64,000 nucleotides of DNA. It comes from Dioscorea cayenensis subsp. rotundata (Eukaryota; Streptophyta; Magnoliopsida; Dioscoreales; Dioscoreaceae). This document shows, piece after piece, positions 5,217 through 62,683 of the stretch (within the stretch, counting starts at the first letter, position 1; each line of letters starts with the position of its first letter). The stretch is from assembly GCF_009730915.1 (NCBI RefSeq), contig NC_052483.1, positions 7,936,001-8,000,000 of the forward strand, given 5' to 3'. The notes beneath the pieces were generated by a model. The model searched no databases. It was not told where the DNA came from and worked only from the letters and a program-made list of their open reading frames with translations. The translations under genes were made by a program, and so were the position numbers.

Positions 5217-6677
5217 ATGTTCTTGTGGGCAGTTTGCAAGCAATACTTTCCAAACCAGCTTGAGAACTACTTCTCCAAATGCTACACAAAGTTCATTACT
5301 CTCATCTATCCATACATAGAGATCAGCTTCCCTGAATACGTCGGCCAACGGCTCAAACGCAGTGAGGCCTACACTGCCATCGAGTCCTACCTCTCCAACA
5401 CCACCTCCGAACGCGCCAAACGTCTCAAAGCTGAGATGGGCCATGACAGTGATAAGCTCATCCTCAGCATGGCCGAGAATGAAGAGATCACTGATGAGTT
5501 GCGTGGTATCAAGCTCTAGTGGTACTCAAACAAGATATCATCCAACAGACAGACCATATCTTTCTACCCGACAGACGATGACAAACGGTCTTACCGTCTG
5601 ACGTTTCACTGGAGACATAGAGCAATTGTCAATGACTCTTATCTTTCTCTTGTTATCCAACAGGGAAAGGCCATTGCTGTGCAGAAGAGGAAGAGAAAGC
5701 TCTACACCAACAGCTCAAACTTTGATTACAGTGAGTTTAGGAAGTTGGTTTGGAGTCATGTTGCGTTTGAGCACCCTGCCACGTTTGAAACCCTGGCCAT
5801 GGAGCCTGAGATGAAACTTGAGATCATTCAAGACTTGGTGAAGTTTAGCAAGAGCAAGGAGTACTATGCCAAGATTGGGAAGCCATGGAAGAGAGGTTAC
5901 TTGCTTTTTGGTCCTCCAGGAACTGGGAAATCCACTATGATTGCAGCCATGGCTAACGTGCTGGATTATGATGTTTATGATCTTGAAATCACTGCAGTGA
6001 AGGATAATAGTGCTTTGAGGAAGCTCTTGTTGAATACTACAAGCAAGTCGATAATCGTCATCGAAGATATTGATTGTTCTTTGGATTTATCAGGGAAGCG
6101 CAAGACCGGAGGAGACCAGCAAGAGGGGAATAAGGAGGAGGAGGAGAAGAAGAAGGCCATGGGTGGTCCTCCTGGTAAGGAGGAGAGCAAGGTTACTCTG
6201 TCAGGGTTGCTTAATTGTATAGATGGATTATGGTCTGCATGTGGTGGAGAGAAGTTGATTGTTTTCACCACCAACCATATTGAGAAGCTTGATCCTGCAT
6301 TGATAAGGAAAGGAAGGATGGACAAGCATATTGAATTGGGATTCTGTGGGTATGAAGGGTTTAAGGTGTTGGCTAAGAATTATCTTGGAGTGGAATCTCA
6401 TCCATTGTTTGATAGTATTCATGAGCTGTTGAAGGAGAAGAAGATGAGTCCTGCTGACGTGGCAGAGAATTTGATGCCAAAGAATGAGTCTGAGGATCAA
6501 GCTGATCTTTGCCTGCAGAGTCTTGTTAAGGCTCTGAAAGAATGCAAGTCTGAGAATGAGATAGATGAGGAAGAAGAAGGAGAGCAAGAGAAGAAGGAGG
6601 TAAAGACAGACGCAGAGAAGTCAGTGAATGATGTGAAGGTTGGAGATAAAGAAACCGAAGAAAACAAAGAAGATTGA
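5217..6677 (+). pseudogene. AATP1/BCS1-type AAA-ATPase gene with one in-frame stop
   Basis: This is a single-exon plant AAA-ATPase of the AATP1 / OM66-like family (BCS1-related, membrane anchored). The frame would be 486 codons, close to family length, but codon 101 is TAG (5517-5519) where relatives have Trp. Visible parts are a short hydrophobic N-terminus, the AAA-associated domain to about residue 150, Walker A GPPGTGKS at 232-239, Walker B IIVIEDID at about 279-286, and the GRMDKHIE segment with second-region-of-homology features. The tail is very acidic and lysine-rich. The frame is identical on both sides of the stop, so a single G-to-A change explains it. Without readthrough only a 100-residue product is made; an internal start at 5679 would give a 332-residue protein with the whole ATPase core. 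A sequencing error is the alternative. Confidence 0.9.
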
Positions 6678-26620: not shown

Positions 26621-27625
26621 CATATAAACAAAAACATGTTAAAAAGTTCAAAATAAGTTAATATATTAAGAAAGAATATAGAGAGGGATTTCTAGTTTTA
26701 ATGTTTGCATGGTCATGGATTTCTAGTTTTAATGTTTGCGTGGTCATGGTTTCTAGTTTGTGATGGATCGATCATAATTTCACTGTTTTAAGACTTAATC
26801 CCCGAAGACTTGTTTATGGAAATTCAATTTTATTTGATGTTGGAGTATAAGCAAATTGCATATTTGATTTAGTATGTTTCCAAATTAAAATCATGCATTA
26901 TAATCAATTTTCTAAAAGAGTTTGTAGTTCCATTAATAGTTCAAGCATTTCAGGTTTAATCATGTTTATAAGCGACTCAAAGCTTCGATTAATATACAGT
27001 TCCCAGGTTAAGATCGCGGAGCATGTGCAAGGATTTTTGATGAATTAATTGATATTATCAATACAATTAATCCACTAAAAGAAATTCTAAGCTCGGCCAT
27101 TGGTATTTAAAACTATATGCTTGCTGAGATGCGGAACATGTGCACATGTTTTGACGAATATAAGTTAAATGTGCAATGCAATCAACCTATGGAAAGAAAT
27201 CAAGCCGTTTGAGATACCGATGTTTTCGATATAAGTTAAATGTGCACGATGCACGATCAACCATCTATTTCTACGACCCTAAAATCATAGCTTTCAATTT
27301 GGCGATGGATATGAAATCATCTCGAATCGTGTGGTATATGCAACAATGTAAGAGGCGCTGGAACACATTGAGCGGACACATTACATCAAAGTCCCAAATT
27401 TATGCAACCTCAAATTTCGTATGAGGACAACAAAAGATAATTTATAGAGAGAGCTGCTGCTACCTTGTCCTTTTTACAAAGATTGAACTTGGGATGATCA
27501 AGGTGTTCTTGTCGCAAAAGCACTAGCTCACGTGCCAAAGTGCAATAATAAATCTTTCAAAAATGATGCAGAAACATTTATATTGACTATAACAAATATT
27601 AGTGCTATAAATAATAGATTTCAAT
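26621..27625. other. Spacer before the assembly gap, nothing recognised
   Basis: No gene is recognised. Short direct repeats occur (GGATTTCTAGTTTTAATGTTTGC twice, near 26690 and 26720; GATATAAGTTAAATGTGCA-like words near 27160 and 27230). The CACTA-2 right end may be in or near this stretch. Confidence 0.4.
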
Positions 27626-28625
27626 NNNNNNNNNNNNNNNNNNNNNNNNNNNNNNNNNNNNNNNNNNNNNNNNNNNNNNNNNNNNNNNNNNNNNNNNNNN
27701 NNNNNNNNNNNNNNNNNNNNNNNNNNNNNNNNNNNNNNNNNNNNNNNNNNNNNNNNNNNNNNNNNNNNNNNNNNNNNNNNNNNNNNNNNNNNNNNNNNNN
27801 NNNNNNNNNNNNNNNNNNNNNNNNNNNNNNNNNNNNNNNNNNNNNNNNNNNNNNNNNNNNNNNNNNNNNNNNNNNNNNNNNNNNNNNNNNNNNNNNNNNN
27901 NNNNNNNNNNNNNNNNNNNNNNNNNNNNNNNNNNNNNNNNNNNNNNNNNNNNNNNNNNNNNNNNNNNNNNNNNNNNNNNNNNNNNNNNNNNNNNNNNNNN
28001 NNNNNNNNNNNNNNNNNNNNNNNNNNNNNNNNNNNNNNNNNNNNNNNNNNNNNNNNNNNNNNNNNNNNNNNNNNNNNNNNNNNNNNNNNNNNNNNNNNNN
28101 NNNNNNNNNNNNNNNNNNNNNNNNNNNNNNNNNNNNNNNNNNNNNNNNNNNNNNNNNNNNNNNNNNNNNNNNNNNNNNNNNNNNNNNNNNNNNNNNNNNN
28201 NNNNNNNNNNNNNNNNNNNNNNNNNNNNNNNNNNNNNNNNNNNNNNNNNNNNNNNNNNNNNNNNNNNNNNNNNNNNNNNNNNNNNNNNNNNNNNNNNNNN
28301 NNNNNNNNNNNNNNNNNNNNNNNNNNNNNNNNNNNNNNNNNNNNNNNNNNNNNNNNNNNNNNNNNNNNNNNNNNNNNNNNNNNNNNNNNNNNNNNNNNNN
28401 NNNNNNNNNNNNNNNNNNNNNNNNNNNNNNNNNNNNNNNNNNNNNNNNNNNNNNNNNNNNNNNNNNNNNNNNNNNNNNNNNNNNNNNNNNNNNNNNNNNN
28501 NNNNNNNNNNNNNNNNNNNNNNNNNNNNNNNNNNNNNNNNNNNNNNNNNNNNNNNNNNNNNNNNNNNNNNNNNNNNNNNNNNNNNNNNNNNNNNNNNNNN
28601 NNNNNNNNNNNNNNNNNNNNNNNNN
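27626..28625. other. Assembly gap (1,000 N)
   Basis: Exactly 1,000 N. Such a round number is a placeholder, so the true distance between the flanks is unknown. Confidence 1.
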
Positions 28626-50012: not shown

Positions 50013-52613
50013 TTAATAACTTGTTTTAACATTCATGAATCCACAGTACATATGAAGAAGTAGGAAATAATAAAAGCAAAGCATGAAACTCACTAGATAG
50101 AAAATTTGCCGAAGGTGAGATGGGATGGTGGCATCATCCCTCTCTAAGCTTTCCCAACATTTTCTCTCACAATAAATGTCTGTCATTCCTTGATTGTTGT
50201 TAATGCTACTCTTGAAGGGTAACTTCTTAAGACATTGAGGCACCCGAAGCCATGAAAGTCGAGGGAAATCCAATGTGAAATTGCTTATGCTCACTAATTT
50301 TGGTAGGTGATATAAATCTAAATTTCGCAGGGCAGGAAACATTGGGCGTTCGGAGATTTGTTGTTGTTGGATTTCTCTCTCCTCGATGTAAAACAATGTT
50401 TCTATCTCTTCACAATCCTCTACAACATGATTTGTAAGTTGAGGGAAATGCAATGCAAAATTGTTTATGCTCACCAATTTTGGTAGGTCAGATATTACTA
50501 AAGATTGTAATGCAGGGAATGTTGGGCCGCATTCCGAGACTTCTTGTTGTTGGATTTCTTTGTTGTCGATGTAAAACAATGTTTCTATTTTTGGACAATC
50601 TTCTATAAGTAAAAGAGATAGACATGGGAGATGGAGGACCCAAGCTAAATTATCCAAATTACATCTTGATATAGATAACCTCTTCAACACATGAAAAAAT
50701 TTTAGAGGCGATAGATCTCTCCAAATAATTTTCTGCAGTTTTTCAACATTAGAGATATTGAGGTAATTGAGATGACTCTCACTTCCATTCATCACAAGCT
50801 CCTTAAGCTCTTGGCATGAACGAATTATCAGTTCCAGCAAGAATCCATGATCTTTGCAGCTTAAAGTATCCAATGAAAGATAGATCATGTTATCCAAATT
50901 GGCTAGACAAAGCCGAGTAGTCGGCAAACATTAGAGTTGTTGGAGAACCTCTTGTGATACTACACGCATTCCTATTGCTTTGATGTTCATGTGTTTCTTT
51001 AATTCTATTGGTTTTACCCACCCATATGGATAAATGTCAATGACCTTCAACCTCTGTAATCTTAACATGAGACCATCCTTTACCTTACTAAGCTTTCTCG
51101 AATTTCTGCATATCAAAAATTGCAATTTATTCAAATATACCAACTCCTTTGGAAGTGATGAGATATTCGTAAATGAAATGTTTAGGTATTGTAAATTAAC
51201 CAAACATTGGATGTCCTTTGGAAGCTCTTCGATACCAGTGTATGAAAGATCCAAATATGTCAAATTTGGCATCTGTCTGAAAAATCCTTCAAAAATATTT
51301 GTGAAACAAGAATTATTTTGTATCATTAAACACAACAAATCAGAACACTGATGAGACAAAATTGGCAAAAGCTCCACCTCACCACTTATAATCACTCGGT
51401 TCACAAATCTCCAATTTTCTGCATTGATTGATGGTATTTCAACTGTGAATGGATATTTTTTCACTATCCATTTATTCATGTTCATCCCACAATCTGATGC
51501 TATCCACACTGCCATCTCATGAATTACATCATGTACGATCACAGAATTATTACCAAAAGAATACAATAAACATGATTCCTCAAGATTCTTAAAGATATGC
51601 CTTGTTGTGCCATAAGCTTGTTGTAAATTGACAAAATCACCGATCAAGCCTAAATCCATCCATAATTCTAACAAACCATCTTTAGATAACCATCGCAAAA
51701 TGGAAGCACACAAGAAACACTCCTGAATATTTCTAGGTAGATTATCATAACTGAATTTCAAAATCGAAAGTAATGAATCCTCCACACCTTGAACTTTGGA
51801 AGGACCTGGATTCTTAAGCGAGATCAAAATAAATTCCCAATCTTGGACATTTTTTTTGTTTGACATGGCCTTACCAATTACTTTCAAAGCAAGTGGCAAA
51901 CCACCACACTTTCTCATCACCTGCCATGCTATTTCTTTAAACATTTCATCTGACTCAATAACATCTAGATTAACATTGTGCTTGAAAAGAGCCCATGCTT
52001 CATCATCTTCCAAGCATTCCACTTTAATCTTTTTGCTTGCTTCCATCCGAGCACACACATCTTCTGATCGAGTAGTGAAAATCACTTTATGCTGGTATTG
52101 TTTGGTGGAATTATCATCGCTATAAGGACATGGAATTCCAAGATTTATAAGATCTACTTCTTCCCATATATTATCCAAGAGCAATACAAAGTTGCTAATT
52201 TTTAAAACAGTGAAGATCTCTTCTGTACCAGCACGCTGCAAATTGAACCTTTTAGCAATCTGTTTTTGAAGCACTTCCAACTGAATATCTTTTGAAGCTT
52301 CGATAAATAACACATGATTGAATCCCATGTTTGCATCACCTGATAATGACTGGTTGATTTTTTTCAAGAGTGTAGTCTTGCCTACACCTCCAATGCCCCA
52401 TATGCCAATTATACCGACTGTTTCATCTGCCAGATAACTGCGAGCAATATCAACGTCGGAGCTGATTTTTTCCCCCACTGTTTTATATGATTTAGGGATT
52501 GGTTTAGGAGACCGTTGCTCTATGACTGAGACTTCTGATTATTCTCCTTTCAGCTGAGTTATTTCATCTAATACATTAACGAATTGTGTTACCTTCTCAT
52601 CTTTTTCTCTAAC
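50013..52613 (-). pseudogene. CC-NBS-LRR (RPS2/RPS5-type) gene 1, with in-frame stops
   Basis: This is an intracellular immune receptor of the coiled-coil NBS-LRR class. From the ATG at 52478: P-loop GIGGVGKTT at residues 28-36, kinase-2 LLLDNIW at about 99-105 (Trp end, typical of the CC class), RNBS-B KVIFTTRSEDVC at 131-142, GGLPLAL at 192-198, an MHD-like VHDVIHEMA, then LRRs. Two in-frame stops: TAA at 52539-52541, upstream in the same exon (acceptor at about 52614), cutting it from the CC part; and TAA at 50931-50933 in the LRR, after which the same frame continues to 50013. The frame holds otherwise, so decay is recent or residual truncated products exist. No CC exon was found upstream. 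Confidence 0.9.
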
Positions 52614-52853
52614 CTGTTTAAATCAATTCAGATGTTGTGAAACCAATATATACATATACATATTGTTATATTATAACAACTTGAAAACACAAACCAAAAC
52701 AAAAAATGTATAAGATGATTTTGAGAAAAGAATCATCTTGATTCAGCAAAAGAAAGAACATGTTTGACTATATAATAATTTTTTCCTACTGTTTAACTAC
52801 ATTATCCCTTTTTCTTATATTTGCAAAATATTTCAATGCGACCCATACATAAG
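52614..52853. other. Probable intron or upstream spacer of NLR gene 1
   Basis: AT-rich sequence beyond the splice acceptor at 52614; no coding signal seen. Confidence 0.4.
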
Positions 52854-52865
52854 AAATGGTCATTT

Positions 52866-53096
52866 GTCAACCATTGGATAGCTCAATGGTATGACACCAA
52901 AGTGTAAAGGGGAGGTCATGGGTTCAAATCCCTCCCCCAGCAGTACTGTTTCACATACTGTTTATACACGGTTCACCCAGGATTCTTATATTATTCTTCT
53001 ACTGAACATACACTGTACATCTGTGCTCCAGTACTATTTAATACTATTTATATTCATAAAAAATGGCGTTTGTCGCCTATTATTCCAAAAAAAAAA
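52866..53096 (+). mobile_element. tRNA-derived SINE
   Basis: Pol III box A TAGCTCAATGG (52879-52889) and box B GGTTCAAATCC (52921-52931) lie 31 bases apart. A non-tRNA body and an A-run at about 53087-53099 follow. The perfect 12-bp target duplication AAATGGTCATTT flanks it (52854-52865 and 53097-53108). It lies between the two NLR genes. Confidence 0.92.
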
Positions 53097-53108
53097 AAAT
53101 GGTCATTT

Positions 53109-53653
53109 TCTCCCATCAATAATATTTCATGTGTTATTTTTTTTTTAATTATTCTTTATGTGGCAACTAGCACGAACTAGCCTCAGAGTTCGTATCTGCA
53201 TTATTTTTATTTTTTATTTTTTTCCATTGGAGTGGATTCATCAAAATATTAATCCATATTAACATAATAAAAAAATATTTTTAAAAATTATTGTTAAATA
53301 AAAACTGTGTGACGTTGCTGACATAGCAAAATCAATCAATATGGTCAAATGCACCACTGCATGTATATTATATGATGCATGAAGAAATAATAATTAAAAA
53401 TCATTCATTTGTTAAATGGTATACTGAGTAGATGTTATAATAAAAATGATCGCTATCTAATCATTATATCCAATATTTAAAAATTATAGAACCAAAATTG
53501 AATAAAATGATAAAATACAAGTATGTAAAAATGCATTTAAACACATAAAATAAAAAATAAGATAGCAAAAGATAGAGAAATATGGCTAGAATTGATACAA
53601 ACCTCCCATCCATGAAAATAAACAAATAAATGAGCAAAACTTTCGATGATTAC
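53109..53653. other. Spacer between NLR genes
   Basis: AT-rich; no gene recognised. A further 3' exon of NLR gene 2 could be here, but I cannot define it. Confidence 0.4.
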
Positions 53654-55847
53654 CTCACCAAACAAAGATATTGTTGGAGAACCATCATGACCAGATGTTG
53701 GAGCAGGGTCAACTGCAAATAAAAATAACAAAAATATTTTTATTAGAACCCACACCACAATATTGACAAATAGTGATAAGCACTCTAATTTAAGAGTGTT
53801 AAGACAACATATGAATATAAGAATTCATTAGTTACAATAGCTTAATAGCTCACAATAAAAAATTTAAAATGAATAGAAAAATCCATGATTTTGAGAAATA
53901 CCAAAATATTCCACAATTTCTTTGTCTTTTGTGGGAACATTGCCAACTGGGATAAAATTAACAAGAATTTATATTTTTATTAGCAAAACACCACAATAAA
54001 AAATTGAAAATAAAGTAGATAGAATCCATTATTTTTGGAAAATACCAAAATATTCCGCAATTTCTTCGTCTTCTATAAGAAGATTGCCAACTGCAAATGA
54101 AAGTAACAAGAATATTTTTATTAATTAGCAACATACACCACAACACAAAAATTGAAACTAAAATAGAATAATCCATGATTTTGAAAAATACCAAAAAATT
54201 CTGCAATTTCTTCATCTTCTATAGTAACATTGCCAAGTGCAAATGAAAGTAACAAGAATATTTTTATTAATTAGCAACACACACCACAACACGAAAATTG
54301 AAACTAAAATAGAATAATTCATGATTTTGAAAAATACCAGAAAATTCTGCAATTTCTTCCTCTTCTGTGCTATTTGAGCAAAATTGGGATTGGATACTGG
54401 CATCATCCCACTCTAATATCTCCCACCATTTCTTCTCACATTTAATTAATAGGCCTTGGTTATTGGTGATATCGGGCTTGAATGGAAGCCTCTTCAGATT
54501 TGGACAGTCCTCCAAGTGAACCTTTGAAAGATGAGGGAAATCTAATGCACAACTGCTTATTTTCACTAGCTTTGGTAAATGAACTATTGTCAAATACTTT
54601 AATCTGGGGAACATAGTGATGGCGCTGTCTTCTTCAATTTCTCCCACCTCTTCATCTACCAATTCTTCCATCGCATTACAATTTTTTAATACCAAAATAC
54701 AGAGGAGCGGGAGATGCAAGACCCAATGAAGACTTGTCAAGGTGTGGCATGCTTCAATTTGGACAAGTTGAAGCATTGGAAAACCTTCTTTCGGCTCAAT
54801 CCTCCATACAAAACTTCTCAATTTTGGGAGATCAAATAATTTGAGAAACTTGAGATTTATCTTAGTTCCATTAGTAATCACCAAGTTTTGAATGGTAGTG
54901 CATGATCTGATTTGATATCTCTTCGGCCACCCATGACCTTCAATTGTTAAACTACTAAGTTGAAGTGTCCGCAAGCCTTCAATTTCTTGAATATTAATAT
55001 TGACAATTGGCAGGTGGGAGAGTTGTTGGAGGATCTCATAAGAAGATGCACACATTCCTATACCTTTCAAGCCTCTCAGTATCTCCAATTCCTTTGGTTC
55101 TACATACCCATATGGATATAGGTCAAGCACCTGTAGACTGTACAAATTTGATAATAGCCCAGCCTGTAATTTGCCTAGAAACAGATATCCACAAAAAAGG
55201 TATTTCAATTTTTTCAAATTTCCCAGCTCTTGCGGAAGTGATTTGATTTTTGTGCGTGATATGTCAAGAAACTCAAGGTTAAACAAATGTGTGATGATCT
55301 CAATTGGGAGCTCATGAATTCTAGTGGAAGATATATTCAAGTATGTGAGATTTGGCATTTGTCTAAGAAAGATTTTTGGCAGATTTTCTAGTCTTTGATT
55401 ATGCTGAATGTTCAAACTCAAGAGGCTTGGGCACTCAAACTGCAACTGAGGCAAACAATTCATATCACAGTTGACTATTGACACTCGTTCCAGCTCAAAC
55501 CATGTCTCCACCTCCTCCAATGATAACTGTTCTACATTAATGTTTTGTCTAACAAACCATGGCTTGTTGCTAGCACCCCCAACTCCTATGGCTATCCATT
55601 GGACCATGCCATGTATTATTTCATGTACCTTAGCTACTCTTTTATTATCATGAGTTACTACCAAACTTGCATCCTCCAAGATTTCAAGGATATAGCATCC
55701 ATGCATGTAAGCTTCAGATAAAGAATCAAAGCAGGAGATCAGTCCAAACCCTAACCAACATTTAATTATATCTTCAGTTGAGATGAGCTTTTTTTTAGGC
55801 CACAAGCAGAAATATAAGAAACACTGTTGAAGGGTTTTATTGACTAG
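53654..55847 (-). pseudogene. NLR gene 2, LRR and C-terminal part, cut by CACTA-3
   Basis: The minus strand encodes the winged-helix and LRR part of a second RPS2/RPS5-type receptor. It starts directly at the transposon edge (LVNKTLQQCFLYFCLWP), then IIKCWLGFGLI, an MHD-like VHEIIHGMVQWIA, and about 14 LRRs with LPxLxxLxL spacing to DDASIQSQFCS. The LRR exon ends at 54338 (donor GTATTT). Downstream come three 45-nt exon cassettes (54192-54236, 54046-54090, 53902-53946) and a 59-nt exon 53654-53712 (DPAPTSGHDGSPTISLF) with donor GTAATC. No internal stop is seen in the LRR exon. The N-terminal half is at 62384-62683 and beyond. Confidence 0.9.
53902..54382 (-). repeat. Tandem 144-146-bp repeats carrying symmetric 45-nt exon cassettes
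   Basis: Four copies of a 45-nt coding unit lie at 54338-54382 (fused to the LRR exon), 54192-54236, 54046-54090 and 53902-53946. The last three are separated by near-identical intron sequence. Each would add 15 residues such as GNLLIEDEEIAEYF in phase 1. Donors are GTATTT in all. Acceptors are CAG for the last two, but the first detached copy has TTTGCAC instead of TTTGCAG and so is probably skipped. Confidence 0.85.
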
Positions 55848-55879
55848 CACTACACCAAAAAAGTGTTTTTGAGGCGGTT

Positions 55880-56390
55880 TTAAAGCCCTATAGAGGTGGT
55901 TATAACCGCCTTTATAGGTATAGTGTTGGTTTTTTTACCCGCCTCTAAACCGTCTCGTATCAAGCCGGCTCTACACTTTAGAGCCGGTTTGTACCAACCG
56001 TTGGGGTAAGTTTTATTTACGGAAGCGGTTTTTAATAACAAGAGTAGAGGCGGTTATAACCGCCTCTATAGCTACTAAGTTTTCATTACCTTCCAATAGT
56101 TTTAGAGGCGGTTATAACCGTCTCTATAGCTATTAAGTTTTCTTTACCTTTCAATAGTTATAGAGGCGGTTATAACCGTCTCTATAACTACTAAGTTTTC
56201 ATTACTTTCTTATACGTGGTAAAGGCGGTTATAACCGCTTCTATAGTTACTAATTTTTCATTAATCGTTTTAGAGGTGGTTATAACCACCTCTAAAAATT
56301 ATTAGTAGAGGCGGTTATAACCGCCTCTATAGCTAATAATATCTTGCATGTTCATACTTTTAAAGGTGGTTATAATCACCTCTAAATTTG
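55880..56390. repeat. Subterminal palindromes of CACTA-3
   Basis: Near-perfect copies of GAGGCGGTTATAACCGCCTC occur near 55890, 56045, 56103, 56163, 56221, 56273, 56307 and 56363, separated by 35-60 bp with words such as CTACTAAGTTTTCATTA. Several carry compensatory pairs (GGTGG with CCACC), keeping the palindrome. Confidence 0.9.
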
Positions 56391-56999
56391 TTCATTGAAT
56401 TGAATTAAATTTTAATTTTTTTCCAATTAATAATAAATAAATTTGTTAACCTGTAAATTAAAAACATAAAATTTTCATTATATACAAAAATATACTAAAT
56501 TCAATTTCATTGACCATTATTGACATGTTATGAATTAAAGTGTAATGTATTTTGAGTAATAACAAAATATAAGTGTTTTACACTATTTGTGTACTTTCAT
56601 TAAAAAATATTTTTTGAGTTAATTACACAAAGTAAAAAAGCTTCATGTATCCTCTCATCTTGAACCCTCTTGATCTTTAACCATAAATTCTCCAAAATCT
56701 GCAAAAATATTAAACAAAATCCAATTTTATTCAATCAAAATCCAATCTTGTATTTAGAATGACCAAATAAAACATACACACAATACAAAACTATACTAAG
56801 CGGAATTTAGGTTTTAGCTTGGTACTATTTTTGGAAGTCATTAAACCTACACACATGACTGAAAATAAAGAAAATACATCCAACACAAAGAGACCCAAAG
56901 AAAGGGCCCCAGATAGGAGGGAAACTTCCCAGCAAGATGCATATCAAGATGCAGAGATGAATACCTATATACCTATCTGATTAACATACCATTGCCCAT
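56391..56999. other. CACTA-3 interior without recognised gene
   Basis: AT-rich; probably intron or flank of the captured PEX14 segment. Nothing else recognised. Confidence 0.5.
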
Positions 57000-58470
57000 T
57001 GAATGCACTCCTATCGATTTATCCTCATATCGGCCATTCTCTGTTCTCATTTCCAATTCTCGAATAGATTTGGACATGGATTTCATCTCCTTCATTTGCA
57101 TATCCATCATCTCCATAAAAAGTTCAAGACGCTTCCTCTCTACAGATACATGGAATGAAAAATGATAAATTTTTTTTAAAAGCCATATAAGAAATATATG
57201 ATTGAACCAAAAAGATTAAAAAAATGTAGGACCTTCATTTTTTGCATTTACTAATTCTTGATCTGCCTTAGCCACAATAGCAGCTGCAGAAGCGGCAGCT
57301 TTTGCAGCTTTTGCAGCTTCTGCAGCTTCTTCAGCAAGGCTGCTCTTCAATTCTACTTCCTTTTTGGATTCTCTATCTTTTTCAACAACCCTCTGAACCA
57401 AAGATTGCAGCCTAGGAACAACCATTTTCTACAAGGAAAAAACAAGGAACACAATGCATTATAAACAAAACAAACTGTCATAAATTGCACAAGATGAATA
57501 AATGCAAAAGCAGTTTCTGCTCCAGAAGCAATTGCTGGATAGACCACAAAGATAATATAAATGCGAACGCAGTTTTTGGGTAAAGAGTTATGTGATACCT
57601 TAAAAAGAACACCAGTTGCTGCTCTAGAAGCAGTAAGAACACCTATTGCAAACAAAGCATGGTTCCACTGAAGCCGGGGTTGCTGCAAACTAGCACCCAG
57701 AGAAGAACCACCAGCAACAGGCTGCAAGGCTGGAGATGGATTGGGCTGGCTTACTGTAAGGAAATAGAAAATCAGAATTTATAATCCACAGACCTCCATG
57801 TCAAGAAAGGCGTGATAAATGCTAAATATTTCTGAAGAAAACTACTCATGGAGAGACAATGTTAAAATAATAGAAGCTACAATATAAACGCAACCTTGCA
57901 AGCAGATACATTATATGCATTCAATGCATCAATTTTATGTCACATATTGAGAAACAAATAAACAAAATTTGAAATCCATAGAAAAAGAACCCTGTTTTTT
58001 TTCCACCAAAATTTAAGCAACAATAGTTGTTATGCGCAAACAGAGAAACACTTATGATCACCTTGATTAGCTTGGTTTGTGGTGTTAGTCCCTGCACCTG
58101 CGGCATTTGAAGGTGCTGAATCCTGCAAGTCATCACAAAACCAAATCCAATAGTAAGAACTTATAAAAACCATGAAGAATTATACCACCAAAAACAAGCA
58201 CACTGTCAGATGATATAAGGCTTACAGGAACACGGCGGAAGGCCTCATCAATTTCCTCTTTTGAAAGGCCTTTCTTTTCGAGGAAAGCACACCGGAAAAT
58301 CACTGGAGAGCCCTTTACTTTGGGATGAGATAAAAAATTGACAGCATTTTGCACTTGCTCCTCCCTCATCGATTGCGGGATAGCAAATGGTGGCCTTCCA
58401 GAAGATTCATGGGACACCTCTTCTTTAACACTCTCACCTCCATTGCTCATTGGGTTCAATGGATTGCTCT
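57000..58470 (-). pseudogene. PEX14: Captured PEX14 (peroxin) 5' half with introns
   Basis: PEX14 docks PEX5 at the peroxisome membrane. Five exons with GT/AG borders are kept in order: 58226-58470 (REEQVQNAVNFLSHPKVKGS, then KGLSKEEIDEAFRRVP), 58062-58122, about 57599-57753 (WNHALFAIGVLTASRAATG, the membrane segment), 57233-57428 (SLAEEAAEAAKAAKAAASAA), and 57000-57139 (MQMKEMKSMSKSIRELE). Together they cover roughly the N-terminal half of the protein. The normal N-terminal exon and the whole C-terminal half are absent. The kept reading frames show no stop that I can see. It lies inside a transposon, so I infer a captured copy, not the functional locus. Confidence 0.9.
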
Positions 58471-59013
58471 CTGAAATCAAAATCAAGAAAGAAACAACAA
58501 TAAAATACAATTAGGACTTCCTCTTCCTCATAAAGCATCATACCGATACCGATTCTCCAATTTCATATCTCAGATGAAAAACCCAAAAATAGTACCAAGC
58601 TAAAACCTAAATTCTGTACTCGCAAGTTAAAAAAAATCGAATTTTTTTTTTCTTGGTAGAAGTCATAACATTTAATGATAACAATGATCATACAACAGAT
58701 AAGGAACCTTTTAACATAAGCTAGTGGCTAGTATAACTAGTTTAATGTAGACATTTAAAGTATTGCAAAATATACTAGTAAGTTTACTGCACATGATAGG
58801 TTTATCTGCAGAAAAGAAAATAAACAAGTGAGAGACACATGGTAGGGCTAACTGATAACTATTTGAGGGTCAAAAGATGCATGCATATAATGGGATCCAA
58901 ATTTGAGGTTGATGGGCATGTGTCACATGTTAAAGCTAATGCCCGTGCATTGTATTTTTGGTCTCAGAATCTTGACTTGTGAATGTGATCAAGTGTGGAC
59001 CCTATTCATTTTC

Positions 59014-59069
59014 ATTATATACCCTCATTGGCAATGACAATGGATGAACTGAAACTGGAAAGTAAGGAA
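59014..59069. repeat. 56-bp direct repeat, copy 1
   Basis: Matches 59996-60051 at 53 of 56 positions (shared core GGATGAACTGAAACTGGAAA). The two copies bracket the strictosidine-synthase-like segment. Confidence 0.9.
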
Positions 59070-59269
59070 ACTGAAACAATACCCCATTTATAAGCTGATG
59101 ACCTGAATCAGATGCAACAAGTAATGATTCAGTTGGTGCACTTGGGTTTTAATTTTTCATATCACATATATTATTTTCTTTAATTTGAGAATAATGAAGA
59201 AGATTTTCAAAGAGCTAACAGCATTAATAATAAAAAGAAAAAAAAAAGAAAACCATAAATTAGAATAAT

Positions 59270-59906
59270 TCATTTTCTTTGGAAATGAGTACTGTTATCA
59301 GTGAAATAAACCATGTCATTCTGTTGATCAACATCCAAACCATTAGTGAGCCCAAATGGTTGATCATCAACAGCCATAGTAGCTACAGCAACCTGTGCTA
59401 CCTCTCCTCCCTCAAGTCCAATAGTTAATAATCCAAAATAAGCATCAGTGATGTAAAGATCACCGGTGCCTTTATTAAACTGCAACCCCAATGGCCTCCC
59501 ATATTTACTCTCTAAACTTACATGGAAATATTTTATGCTATCATAGTTACTTGTCCTGAAAATACAGTAATTAAAACAATAGTAAAAAATTCATAAGATA
59601 TTATCTTAAGTAGTTATATATGTATCTGTATTATATATATATATATATATACCTGATGTTTGAAGTGGTGGCAAACTCTTGCCAACCAAGACTACAGCCT
59701 CTCCATTTGAGTATATGGCCATTAGAGATGCCAGTGTAGGGGCCTTTGCCATCGGTGTCGAAGGTGATGCTTTCAGGGGCCAAAGCTGATGAGAGAAGGA
59801 GCTTGTCTTGGACATGGAGGTTGGCAATATCCCTTTCAAGCAATGCACAGGTTAATGAGTTTTCTAGTGTGAAGAAGATGATGAGAAAGATGGTCAAATT
59901 TTTCAT
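59270..59906 (-). pseudogene. Captured strictosidine-synthase-like exons
   Basis: Two exons of a strictosidine-synthase-like (six-bladed beta-propeller) protein. Exon 1 (59906-59653) begins with a signal-peptide-like start (MKNLTIFLIIFFTLE) and has APESITFDTDGKGPYTG and GHILKW. Exon 2 (59555 to about 59270) has YGRPLGLQFNKGTGDLYIT, DAYFGLLTIG, TNGLDVD and VYFTDNST. The intron starts with a (TA)n at the donor. The family is about 330-380 residues; here about 180 remain and a stop follows soon after the FTDNST block. Despite the family name, most members do not make strictosidine. Confidence 0.88.
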
Positions 59907-59995
59907 TACTGGTGTTTATACTTCAAAAGGCAAAAAAGATGACAGAGTTTAGTAGTTAGAATAAATTTTGCCAATTATTTTTTCTCATGCCTAAG

Positions 59996-60051
59996 ATTAT
60001 ATACCCTCATTGACCATGGCAATGGATGAACTGAAACTGGAAAGTAAGGAA
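59996..60051. repeat. 56-bp direct repeat, copy 2
   Basis: Partner of 59014-59069. It overlaps the point where the glutathione-transferase frame leaves its family sequence (after VNMEHI). Confidence 0.9.
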
Positions 60052-60757
60052 TCAAACATAATGTGTTCCATGTTAACGGAGCTGTTCATGCCTTTGGTTT
60101 GGTATATGTCTTTGGTGTAGTTGAACAGATTTGGATACTCTCGTATCAGCTTCTTGTTGCATTTGAAATGATCAACATAAACCTGCATGAAATATGAAAG
60201 AATGAGGCGAGTTAGCAACTAAAGCATTATCAACAAAATTATGCAAGGAAACTGGCTCAGTAAATTGAGTTTTGTCAAAGTAAAATAGTTAAGACTTAAG
60301 AGGAGTAATTCTTAATGCCAATTCTGGAAATTGACTGAAAAATTATTATCAAATTCTGACTTCGGCCGTGCTTTATTTTGTTAGCAATTAAACAAAGGAA
60401 AAGCAGTGCATCCAATATGCTACATTTGATTTGAATACTAGTTTCTAGGATATACTTGCTTAATGTAAAGCTACAATTAATAAGACACTTCTAATTTGAA
60501 TACTAGAAATTGCATCTTCTTTTAGAATTGAAAAAAATTTTGCTTCCAGTTACAAAAACTAAATATTGTACAAGGCCCTCGAAATACCATTACAAAATGT
60601 GGTTAAAGTCATCGTGACCAAAAAAAGAATATATTCTTCACTTAAGAGATGAACTGTACCTCATCAAATCTTATAAGAGTGACAAACAAGCGGACATCGA
60701 CCTTCACCAACACATTCCCACAAATGTACCACTCGCTTGCTAAGTATCTCTTCACCC
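60052..60757 (-). pseudogene. Captured ECM4-type glutathione transferase exons
   Basis: Two exons match glutathionyl-hydroquinone reductases (ECM4/YqjG type, omega-like GST). Exon 1, from about 60755 to 60660, reads WYICGNVLVKVDVRLFVTL and IRFDE, the alpha-helical domain start. Exon 2, from 60182, reads VDHFKCNKKLIREYPNLFN and YTKDIYQTKGMNSSVNMEHI. The thioredoxin-like N-terminal domain with the catalytic Cys and the C-terminal tail are absent. After MEHI the sequence departs from the family at the 56-bp direct repeat. Confidence 0.88.
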
Positions 60758-61380
60758 AAAAAAATATAGATCTTCATTAATAACCTACTTCACAATAGCT
60801 AATGAATAAATTATGACAATCAAAATGAAGATAAAAAAATATAAATTATCAACTGCATGTACTAGTGCGTAGCTTCAAATAAATTTCATCGGAGCAATTT
60901 TTTTCCCCAAACCATGCACCCTTCCACCAATGCTTAGCATGTCCCGAATGAATGCTTAAGAGCACCCTGCAAAGATGCATAGAGAGTAAAAAAACATACA
61001 ACCATCACACACCAAAGAATCTCATGTAATTTATATGAAAAAAACTTCAAAGACCAAAAAAATCCAAGAATATCAATGAATCATGTGTCCTCAAAGATCT
61101 TACTTGCAAAAACCTGCTAAAATTTATTATAATACATACAAACAGATACTATAGAGATTTCTTAACAAAATTTTATCAATTTATAATACACACACAATAT
61201 GAAATAACAATTATGAAAAATCAGGCATATTTCTAAGGTTCCTGATAAAATCATATCAGTAGATTTGCAAACTCGTACCAAAAAAACTATATGGTAATCA
61301 AAAGAATAGTTCCACCAAAATCTGCAATTAACATAAAAAAAAAAATCAAAGAGGTCTAAATAATGACAACAAGAAATCAT

Positions 61381-61850
61381 TCGAAGATTAGCGTCCTGCG
61401 TGGGCACAAAGAAGTGCTTGAGATTCGACTTTCCGATGATCGATTCTATGCACGCAGTGGCGCTCACCCTCTTCTCATGGTCTCATCTGGAACAACAAAA
61501 CCAGCACAACATATGCCTTAATCGTATCAAAACAATAAAAAAGGCATGAACAGAGAGAAATCCTGTGAAGAGGGCAACCTCATGGTGACAAGCTGGCGAG
61601 CGGCATTGAGAGCTTCAGAGTGGGATTCACCAAGCACTTGGAGCTCAGCAACGACTCAGCGAGAGGAGAAAAGTAGCACACGGGCTCCGAGGAGATGCTG
61701 GAGAGCGTTGTCCGTAGGAACGAGGCTATGGAGAAGGAGGTGGTGAACGAAGGTACCATCACAGAGGACCTTGTAGGGTTCACAGAATCCAAAGCGCACT
61801 GAGTAGAACCTCTCCGCCTTGCGGTGTCTCTTCTGTTTCTTCACCCTCAT
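61381..61850 (-). pseudogene. UTP23: Captured UTP23 (rRNA-processing PIN protein) exons
   Basis: UTP23 is a nucleolar PIN-domain protein of early 18S rRNA processing. Exon 1 starts at the natural ATG (61848-61850, MRVKKQKRHRKAERFY) and continues FCEPYKVLCDGTFVHHLLL and VVAELQVLGESHSEALNAAR. Exon 2 (about 61488-61381) reads HEKRVSATACIESIIGKSN and HFFVPTQDANLR. A TGA near 61659 replaces the Cys before VVAEL. The C-terminal basic tail is missing. Promoter-side DNA upstream also seems to be included. Confidence 0.9.
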
Positions 61851-61879
61851 TGATGTAGCTCACCGGAACCCTAACCCTT

Positions 61880-62195
61880 TCTCACGCCGGAGGTGAGGCA
61901 GAAGAGTAGGGAGTTTTGCCGTCTGGATCAGAGGTGAGGTGGTCTTCGAGTGCGCGGACTTTCTCATCGTCGGTGAGTGATTCCGGGAGGGTCTCGGACT
62001 GAGAGATAGGGGCGGTGGCGAGGGATGGCTTGAGAAGGCGGCTGAGGAGGGCAGCGAGGGAGAGAGCAGTTGCCGCAGTGGCGGAGGGGATGAGGGTTCT
62101 GAGAGGGTTGTCGTGGGGCCGGAGTTTGAGGGTGGAGGGGTAGAGGGTTTGGGGAGGCGGGCACGAAGAGGCGAGGGCGGAGGAATTAGGGCGAG
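61880..62195 (-). other. Leader with plastid-like N-terminus in CACTA-3 (unidentified)
   Basis: Read on the minus strand, a CT repeat (62195-62219) is followed by a GC-rich open stretch. One frame gives LRTLIPSATAATALSLAALL and SLTDDEKVRALEDHLTSDP. That looks like a plastid transit region followed by the start of a TPR-type protein, but the identification is only a guess. It ends at a stop shortly before the UTP23 start. It could be the 5' end of any transcript reading through the captured genes. Confidence 0.4.
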
Positions 62196-62383
62196 AGAGA
62201 GAGAGAGAGAGAGAGAGAGGGGATGGTTTTTTTAATTATTTTTTAAAACCAAAATTAATGTAGAGGGGTTTAACTAAACCGACTCTAAAAATTAAAAAAA
62301 AATATATCTTATTTATTATAGAGGTGATTTTTTAAAACCCCTCTATTTAATTGCCTCTAAAGCCCATAAATGACGTAGTGTAG

Positions 62384-62683
62384 ACTGTCATAACTGCCTT
62401 TCAAATATAAAAACATTGATTCACATAAACTTGAGGAAAGCCTACCCTGCAGCTGATCGAACATGAGATTCCACTCTGCTGTTGCTGTCTTGTTTGACAT
62501 AGCCCACCCAACCACTATAAGAGCTAGTGGCAAACCACCACATAAATTGACCACCTCTTTTGCTGCTTCCTCTATACAAGATTTACCTTCCAAATCCATC
62601 ACTAAATTTTCTTTGAAAAGCTGCCCCCCTTCATCTCTGTCTTAGCATTCCAATTTGATCTTCTTGTGAGCTTTCATGCAATC
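62384..62683 (-). pseudogene. NLR gene 2, NBS part between two CACTA insertions
   Basis: The minus strand encodes CMKAHKKIKLEC, a stop (TAA, 62642-62644), then QLFKENLVMDLEGKSC, VNLCGGLPLALIVVGWAMSN (GLPL motif) and YLKGSYDSL. This corresponds to the stretch from RNBS-B to just past GLPL in NLR gene 1. The stop stands where relatives have Leu. It is bounded by CACTA-3 on one side (TAG duplication) and CACTA-4 on the other (flank ACA). The P-loop half must lie beyond the window. Confidence 0.9.

Follow-up and report, generated by a model that had tools for sequence, protein, structure and literature searches.

The transposon described here occupies positions 55848-62380 (6,533 bp) of the window, a 64,000-nucleotide stretch of the genome of the yam Dioscorea cayenensis subsp. 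rotundata (NCBI RefSeq assembly GCF_009730915.1, contig NC_052483.1, positions 7,936,001 to 8,000,000 of the forward strand). Five host genes are represented in it by fragments, which all lie on the minus strand and keep their introns: PEX14, a strictosidine-synthase-like (SSL) gene, a glutathione transferase (GST) gene, UTP23 and a TPR-protein gene. We are highly confident that it is a single CACTA (En/Spm-type) element, non-autonomous and of the Pack-CACTA kind. Taken as a whole, an explanation in which such an element captured host genes stepwise by break repair, and in which the captured exons are spliced into chimeric products, is very probably correct. Contigs are designated below by our analysis labels (C13, C7 and so on), the window lying on C13, and the genome searched comprised 584,211,761 bases.

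The left terminus of the element is CACTACACCAAAAAAG at 55848 and the right terminus is GACGTAGTG, with its last base at 62380. Read inwards, the CACTA inverted repeats start with CACTACACC... on the left and, on the opposite strand, with CACTACGTC... on the right. Both termini are flanked by TAG, the two copies of the target-site duplication being located at 55845..55847 and 62381..62383. The element interrupts a coding exon of a minus-strand NLR gene, both pointing the same way, and its excision in silico yields one uninterrupted NLR frame of 612 residues across the flanks. Because its removal fuses both flanks into this single frame, the ends are exact to the base, and the 6.5-kb CACTA element with two ends and a TAG duplication proposed in a first-pass annotation of the window is thereby borne out. 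The left end (55848..56787) comprises the CACTA terminus and subterminal repeats, among them TAGAGGCGGTTATAACCGCCTCTA-type units spanning 55883-56396, and the right end (62177..62380) a CT-rich tract, a few subterminal-repeat-like units and the CACTA terminus; no strand is assigned to ends, duplications or the fillers described below. The subterminal repeats occur in both orientations: the left 550 bp have many inverted pairs and an eight-copy family, the right a few units.

The same organization was found in related elements. Both termini could be located by sequence in 11 of the 13 family loci examined (the window copy and ten relatives), and all 11 have identical 3-bp flanks. The two remaining loci are C5b, whose altered left terminus agrees with a 3-bp duplication only if one inserted base is allowed, and C14, whose right end was not found. 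Helitrons make no target duplication and have a hairpin end, while Pack-MULEs have a 9-11-bp duplication and long inverted repeats; the 3-bp duplications and CACTA ends led us to reject both identities. Reading the listed frames of the element by eye, without a dedicated transposase search, we recognized no transposase, in agreement with the first-pass annotation. The related element on C14 encodes a tnp2-type transposase, with matches to Transposase_21 (3.7e-97), Transpos_assoc (2.3e-26), DUF4218 (8.6e-29) and DUF4216 (4.1e-26), and its left 940 bp are 86% alike to the left end of the window element. Movement of the latter would depend on the transposase of relatives such as this one.

The captured fragments were compared with Pfam and with the rest of the genome. 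The PEX14 fragment (56853..58661) holds five internal exons (58226-58470, 58062-58122, 57599-57753, 57233-57428 and 56990-57139), all GT-AG, which form an open frame of 268 residues with a Pex14_N match (5.4e-14); its donor is C17:827385-829226 (92.5% identity), where the gene runs on into its own 3' exons. The SSL module (58707..60062) contains exon 1, with an ATG near 59906, and exon 2. Its donor (C8:5998130-5999002, 91%) explains positions 59075-59953 only, and its Pfam matches (Str_synth, 2.5e-4; SSL_N, 0.0076) are both below Pfam's cut-off. Direct repeats of 67 bp, 88% alike, frame it at 59014-59080 and 59996-60062. The two exons of the GST fragment (60059..60755) match glutathionyl-hydroquinone reductase of the ECM4 type (7.6e-18 and 4.8e-7). 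Its best donor (C5:23969827-23970513, 91.7%) is a gene with its other exons and one of three matching places inside about 21 kb. The UTP23 segment (60751..61916) includes a 5' untranslated region and first exons at about 61388-61859, limits set by eye, and its DNA down to about 60751 received no gene assignment; one exon matches Fcf1 above the Pfam cut-off (2.4e-5), and the first exon matches UTP23 weakly (0.031). Finally, the leader (61917..62176) derives from the 5' part of the coding region of a gene for a TPR protein, with its donor at C12:20912669-20912936 (88%), an intronless gene with a TPR_19 match (1e-12). Presumably its plant counterpart is SLOW GREEN 1, a name given by no search. 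The TPR gene also has a gene-like paralogue, or partial copy, at C4:10184301-10186801, 92% identical to the leader over 119 bp.

The sequence searches confirm the PEX14, SSL, ECM4-type GST and UTP23 segments that had been recognized from the sequence, on the minus strand and with introns, while identification of the leader, which had been left unnamed beside "at least four" co-oriented genes, brings the number to five. Capture from separate loci, also proposed at that stage, is supported by donors of four fragments, 88-92.5% identical, on four other chromosome-scale contigs. Were the segments native neighbours, or had the assembly joined them wrongly, no capture would be needed. This view is extremely improbable, and nothing was found in its favour: native neighbourhood in the same order is contradicted because the donors lie on C17, C8, C5 and C12 of the yam genome, the donor PEX14 gene keeps its own 3' exons, and the same cargo has been inserted four times, with four different duplications and flanks. 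Both native-neighbour origin and assembly chimerism were rejected on the basis of these distant donors and independent insertion sites.

The four sites are on C13 (the window), C7, C1124 and C15. The first-pass annotation had called for a search for donors and for further copies with the same cargo, and the latter search recovered whole elements on C7, C1124 and C15. The four full copies are 2.3 to 4.1% apart and flanked by TAG, ACG, TAA and ACA, respectively; the C15 copy is without about 296 bp of PEX14. Since four copies with the same cargo have different target duplications, the packed element has itself transposed.

Other relatives carry nested subsets of the cargo. The leader was found at at least 38 places in the genome, UTP23 at at least 14, SSL at at least 10, GST at at least 7 and PEX14 at at least 4. 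Among the best 40 of 55 candidates scored for the first two pieces, the leader is joined to UTP23 at at least 14 places and only the leader is matched at 26; one of these 26 is the donor and one the C4 paralogue, leaving 24, among which a complete element was checked for the window's neighbour only. SSL and GST occur without PEX14 in three relatives (C5, C1114 and C2) and SSL without GST in three (C9, C2 and C15), and the C6 and C5b elements, in which SSL, GST and PEX14 are all missing, have both ends, the leader and the beginning of UTP23. Where SSL is present without PEX14, in six elements, a stretch of 0.5-1.0 kb fills the place of PEX14. Because most of this stretch recurs in C6, and part of it in the C14 element that bears the transposase, PEX14 probably took the place of old transposon DNA. 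GST stands where SSL-only elements keep about 41 bp. From this co-occurrence of pieces, and not from a tree, we infer the order SSL, GST, PEX14: an element with the leader, UTP23 and SSL would have gained GST and later PEX14, one piece each time. Unrooted trees group the members by structural class. An SSL tree uniting the full and GST groups was also obtained without a root; we rejected this grouping, as the donor-rooted tree is a trichotomy. Ten interior frames of C6, C5b, C15b and C16 received no gene name from Pfam and so could not extend the count of orientations.

Two joints, those of PEX14 and GST, were read closely. PEX14 is bordered on its left by a filler of about 65 bp (56788..56853), which contains, at 56803-56834, an exact inverted copy of 58583-58614, a 32-bp sequence that lies at the opposite end of this captured piece. 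Next comes a short run of bases similar to the adjoining left-end sequence. In the PEX14 donor the 32-bp sequence occurs on a single side. The GST joints show TAAT and TGT microhomology common to donor and target. A further filler lies between PEX14 and the SSL module (58662..58706), with no source assigned. Microhomology and templated filler are established marks of break repair by end joining, and the two joints suggest repair-type capture: a break or gap inside the element would have been filled with a copied piece of another locus, the junctions bearing microhomology or templated filler.

The published model for Arabidopsis Pack-CACTA and other Pack-TYPE elements is different: neighbouring elements move together and carry off the DNA between two tandem insertions (PMC8903248, PMC13317346). 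The two family elements in one NLR gene, about 300 bp apart and in the same orientation, are a pair of the sort that this model expects (PMC8903248). We nevertheless find tandem insertion with re-mobilization unlikely, as the two joints are bordered by microhomology or templated filler, with no recognized remnants of transposon ends, and PEX14 stands in place of interior sequence that was there before. The joint evidence bears on the PEX14 and GST captures and not on those of the leader, UTP23 and SSL.

The transposase frames of the C14 element all read from right to left, so that its left end is on their 3' side. Because of this gene direction, the right end of the family is taken as the 5', or promoter, side. 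All five captured fragments face in the direction of the transposase, for which the chance expectation is 1/32, or 1/16 for any common direction. With these values, and with a possible opposite case on C16 described below, the common orientation may quite plausibly be due to chance, a view to which we give a little less than even weight. In the opposite sense, the exons of the soybean element Tgm-Express1 are spliced into one transcript, from which a common direction can be deduced for that single element (PMC1947982). The transcription bias proposed in the first-pass annotation is therefore possible, in that five of five fragments follow the transposase, and unproven, given the C16 case. It is conceivable, if rather doubtful, that the family acts as a one-way exon collector, with a captured gene start, the TPR leader, at the right end, a last exon in the left end and pieces added singly in between by break repair. 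Pieces that face in the transposase direction would then be retained for their ability to join the transcript of the element by splicing, and multi-exon genes would be built stepwise, some of them already expressed and listed in databases.

Two predicted RefSeq proteins of D. cayenensis subsp. rotundata are chimeras lying on copies of the element, their gene models splicing over the borders between fragments in the direction of the transposase. P0001 ("PEX14-like isoform X1", 319 residues), on the C7 copy, begins with SSL exon 1, read in a shifted frame, continues through all five exons of PEX14 and takes its last exon from the transposon left end. In the window copy, this SSL-PEX14-transposon end frame is unbroken over 316 residues, from the shifted-frame part of SSL exon 1 (59653..59752, minus strand) as first exon to a terminal exon inside the left end (56655..56698, minus strand; DFGEFMVKDQEGSR and a stop, with acceptor TTTTTGCAG), as in the C7 model. 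P0152 ("STRICTOSIDINE SYNTHASE-LIKE 10-like", 182 residues) maps completely to the C1124 copy and comprises a shifted-frame GST exon, a GC-AG-looking intron, part of SSL exon 1, SSL exon 2 and a PEX14 exon with a stop; the donor site of its exon 2 is absent from the window copy. None of the 31 hits to a UTP23 query was named as Dioscorea, many of the hits bearing no name. We infer that the RefSeq chimeric models rest on RNA reads. Transcription may start from the right end of the element or from the host gene around it, and the captured exons would be spliced into chimeric mRNAs, with the transposon left end able to supply the last exon.

These two chimeras could instead be annotation artefacts without transcripts. 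They are database models, and P0152 lies on a small contig and has a PEX14 part that looks error-rich. The numbering "isoform X1" of P0001, however, implies several transcript variants, and P0152 needs a GC-AG-looking intron and two frame shifts, an unlikely choice for a purely coding-based predictor. We thus regard artefact as improbable. The chimeric transcripts anticipated in the first-pass annotation find indirect support in these two predicted proteins. The selection that it had also raised is not supported for PEX14, the one frame tested: against its donor, the window copy shows 9 synonymous changes in 177.5 sites and 19 replacement changes in 614.5 (pN/pS, the ratio of replacement to synonymous changes per site, 0.61), and against the C7 copy 0 synonymous and 3 replacement changes, so that no selection is visible.

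The C1124 and C15 copies diverge strongly inside PEX14 (the equivalent of window positions 57230-58450). Their mismatches form clumps of 2-4 bases, many at CAG/CTG, and include all kinds of change; in the complete C1124 copy, changes affect 62 of the 810 positions within or adjacent to CWG, versus 65 of 5210 elsewhere. Nanopore reads are subject to miscalls at methylated CHG. The clumped CAG/CTG pattern fits such miscalls better than evolution, and exon decay was rejected as its cause. This gives a hint that both copies are methylated and that repeat copies carry consensus errors in the assembly; the broken frames of the two copies were excluded from the evidence.

Several observations weigh against the proposed explanation. 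No non-element match to the UTP23 part was found among the best 40 of 575 candidates, in which the donor of this fragment was therefore not recovered. Joints were read in detail for PEX14 and GST only, two in all. The SSL tree rooted with the C8 donor is a trichotomy of the three SSL-bearing groups, with 0.638 on a branch of length zero, and trees of the left end and of the right end conflict, at low to moderate support. The base group formed by C6 and C5b, which is without SSL, is compatible with never having had SSL or with its loss. As to direction, the C14 relative shows a left end only, so that the promoter-side call leans on gene direction, and on C16 a piece that appears nitrilase-like by eye is opposite in direction, at about 2.3 kb inwards from a left end. 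The 7.6 kb that follow this left end yielded no right end, and the piece, which has no Pfam match, may lie outside the element. Lastly, both RefSeq chimeras are predicted proteins. The C16 locus (C16:21204375-21213500) consists of a family left end followed by the nitrilase-like exons, on the plus strand, and by frames that look RNA-helicase-like by eye.

The NLR gene that received the element is split into an upstream part with the end of NB-ARC (62384..62641, minus strand; Pfam 4.3e-12) and a downstream LRR part (54267..55844, minus strand; LRR match at 54270-55847, 3.2e-15). This NLR gene also contains another element of the CACTA family, 6.1 kb long, identically oriented and 306 bp away, at 62687-68786 in window coordinates, which extends past the window end and up to C13:8004786. 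It is flanked by ACA on both sides and has a longer TPR leader fragment than the first element, and past it an NB-ARC-like frame was noted by eye. Tandem NB-ARC/LRR genes occupy the minus strand at 50013-55934 (NB-ARC, 4e-49 at 50931-52535). Elsewhere in the window we noted an AAA ATPase of the At3g28540-like type (5520-6674; AAA lid, 7.4e-30) and about 1 kb of consecutive N (27621-28625), which is a gap or else withheld sequence.

Elements of this kind are already known, and the yam element is a further Pack-CACTA, Tgm-Express1 of soybean being the closest. Tgm-Express1 is a 5.7-kb CACTA element with five unrelated host-gene fragments and introns kept, whose exons are spliced into chimeric transcripts of its host gene (PMC1947982). 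The yam element is similar in size, in its five unrelated fragments and in its retained introns. It differs in that four donors, four same-cargo copies, subset relatives and two joints are seen in one genome, in that its chimeric models lie inside the element, with an exon of the transposon itself closing one of them, and in its insertion in an NLR coding exon, that of Tgm-Express1 being in an intron. The Pack-CACTA and Pack-TYPE elements of Arabidopsis, rice and maize are non-autonomous, with CACTA ends and captured coding DNA, some of it from several loci, and maize Pack-CACTAs have the greatest number of loci (PMC8903248). The yam element shares their CACTA ends and capture, whereas its two joints look like templated break repair rather than the fusion of tandem insertions. 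In Ipomoea nil, the CACTA elements of the large Tpn1 family have conserved ends and, in place of their interiors, host genic DNA, and chimeric transcripts are reported for them (PMC5105172). Ends and interiors are alike in yam, where a nested capture series is seen; none appears in the passages of the Tpn1 account that were compared. No paper on the yam CACTA family was among those listed by our literature searches.

How transposons acquire several host genes is still an open question, between fusion of neighbouring insertions and copying in break repair. With the donors of four fragments, the subset relatives, the full copies and the joints all in one genome, the course and chemistry of capture become readable, and the question of direction could be addressed by counting over at least 38 related places. 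The chimeric models suggest a transposon as the source of two genes that RefSeq lists for a staple crop.

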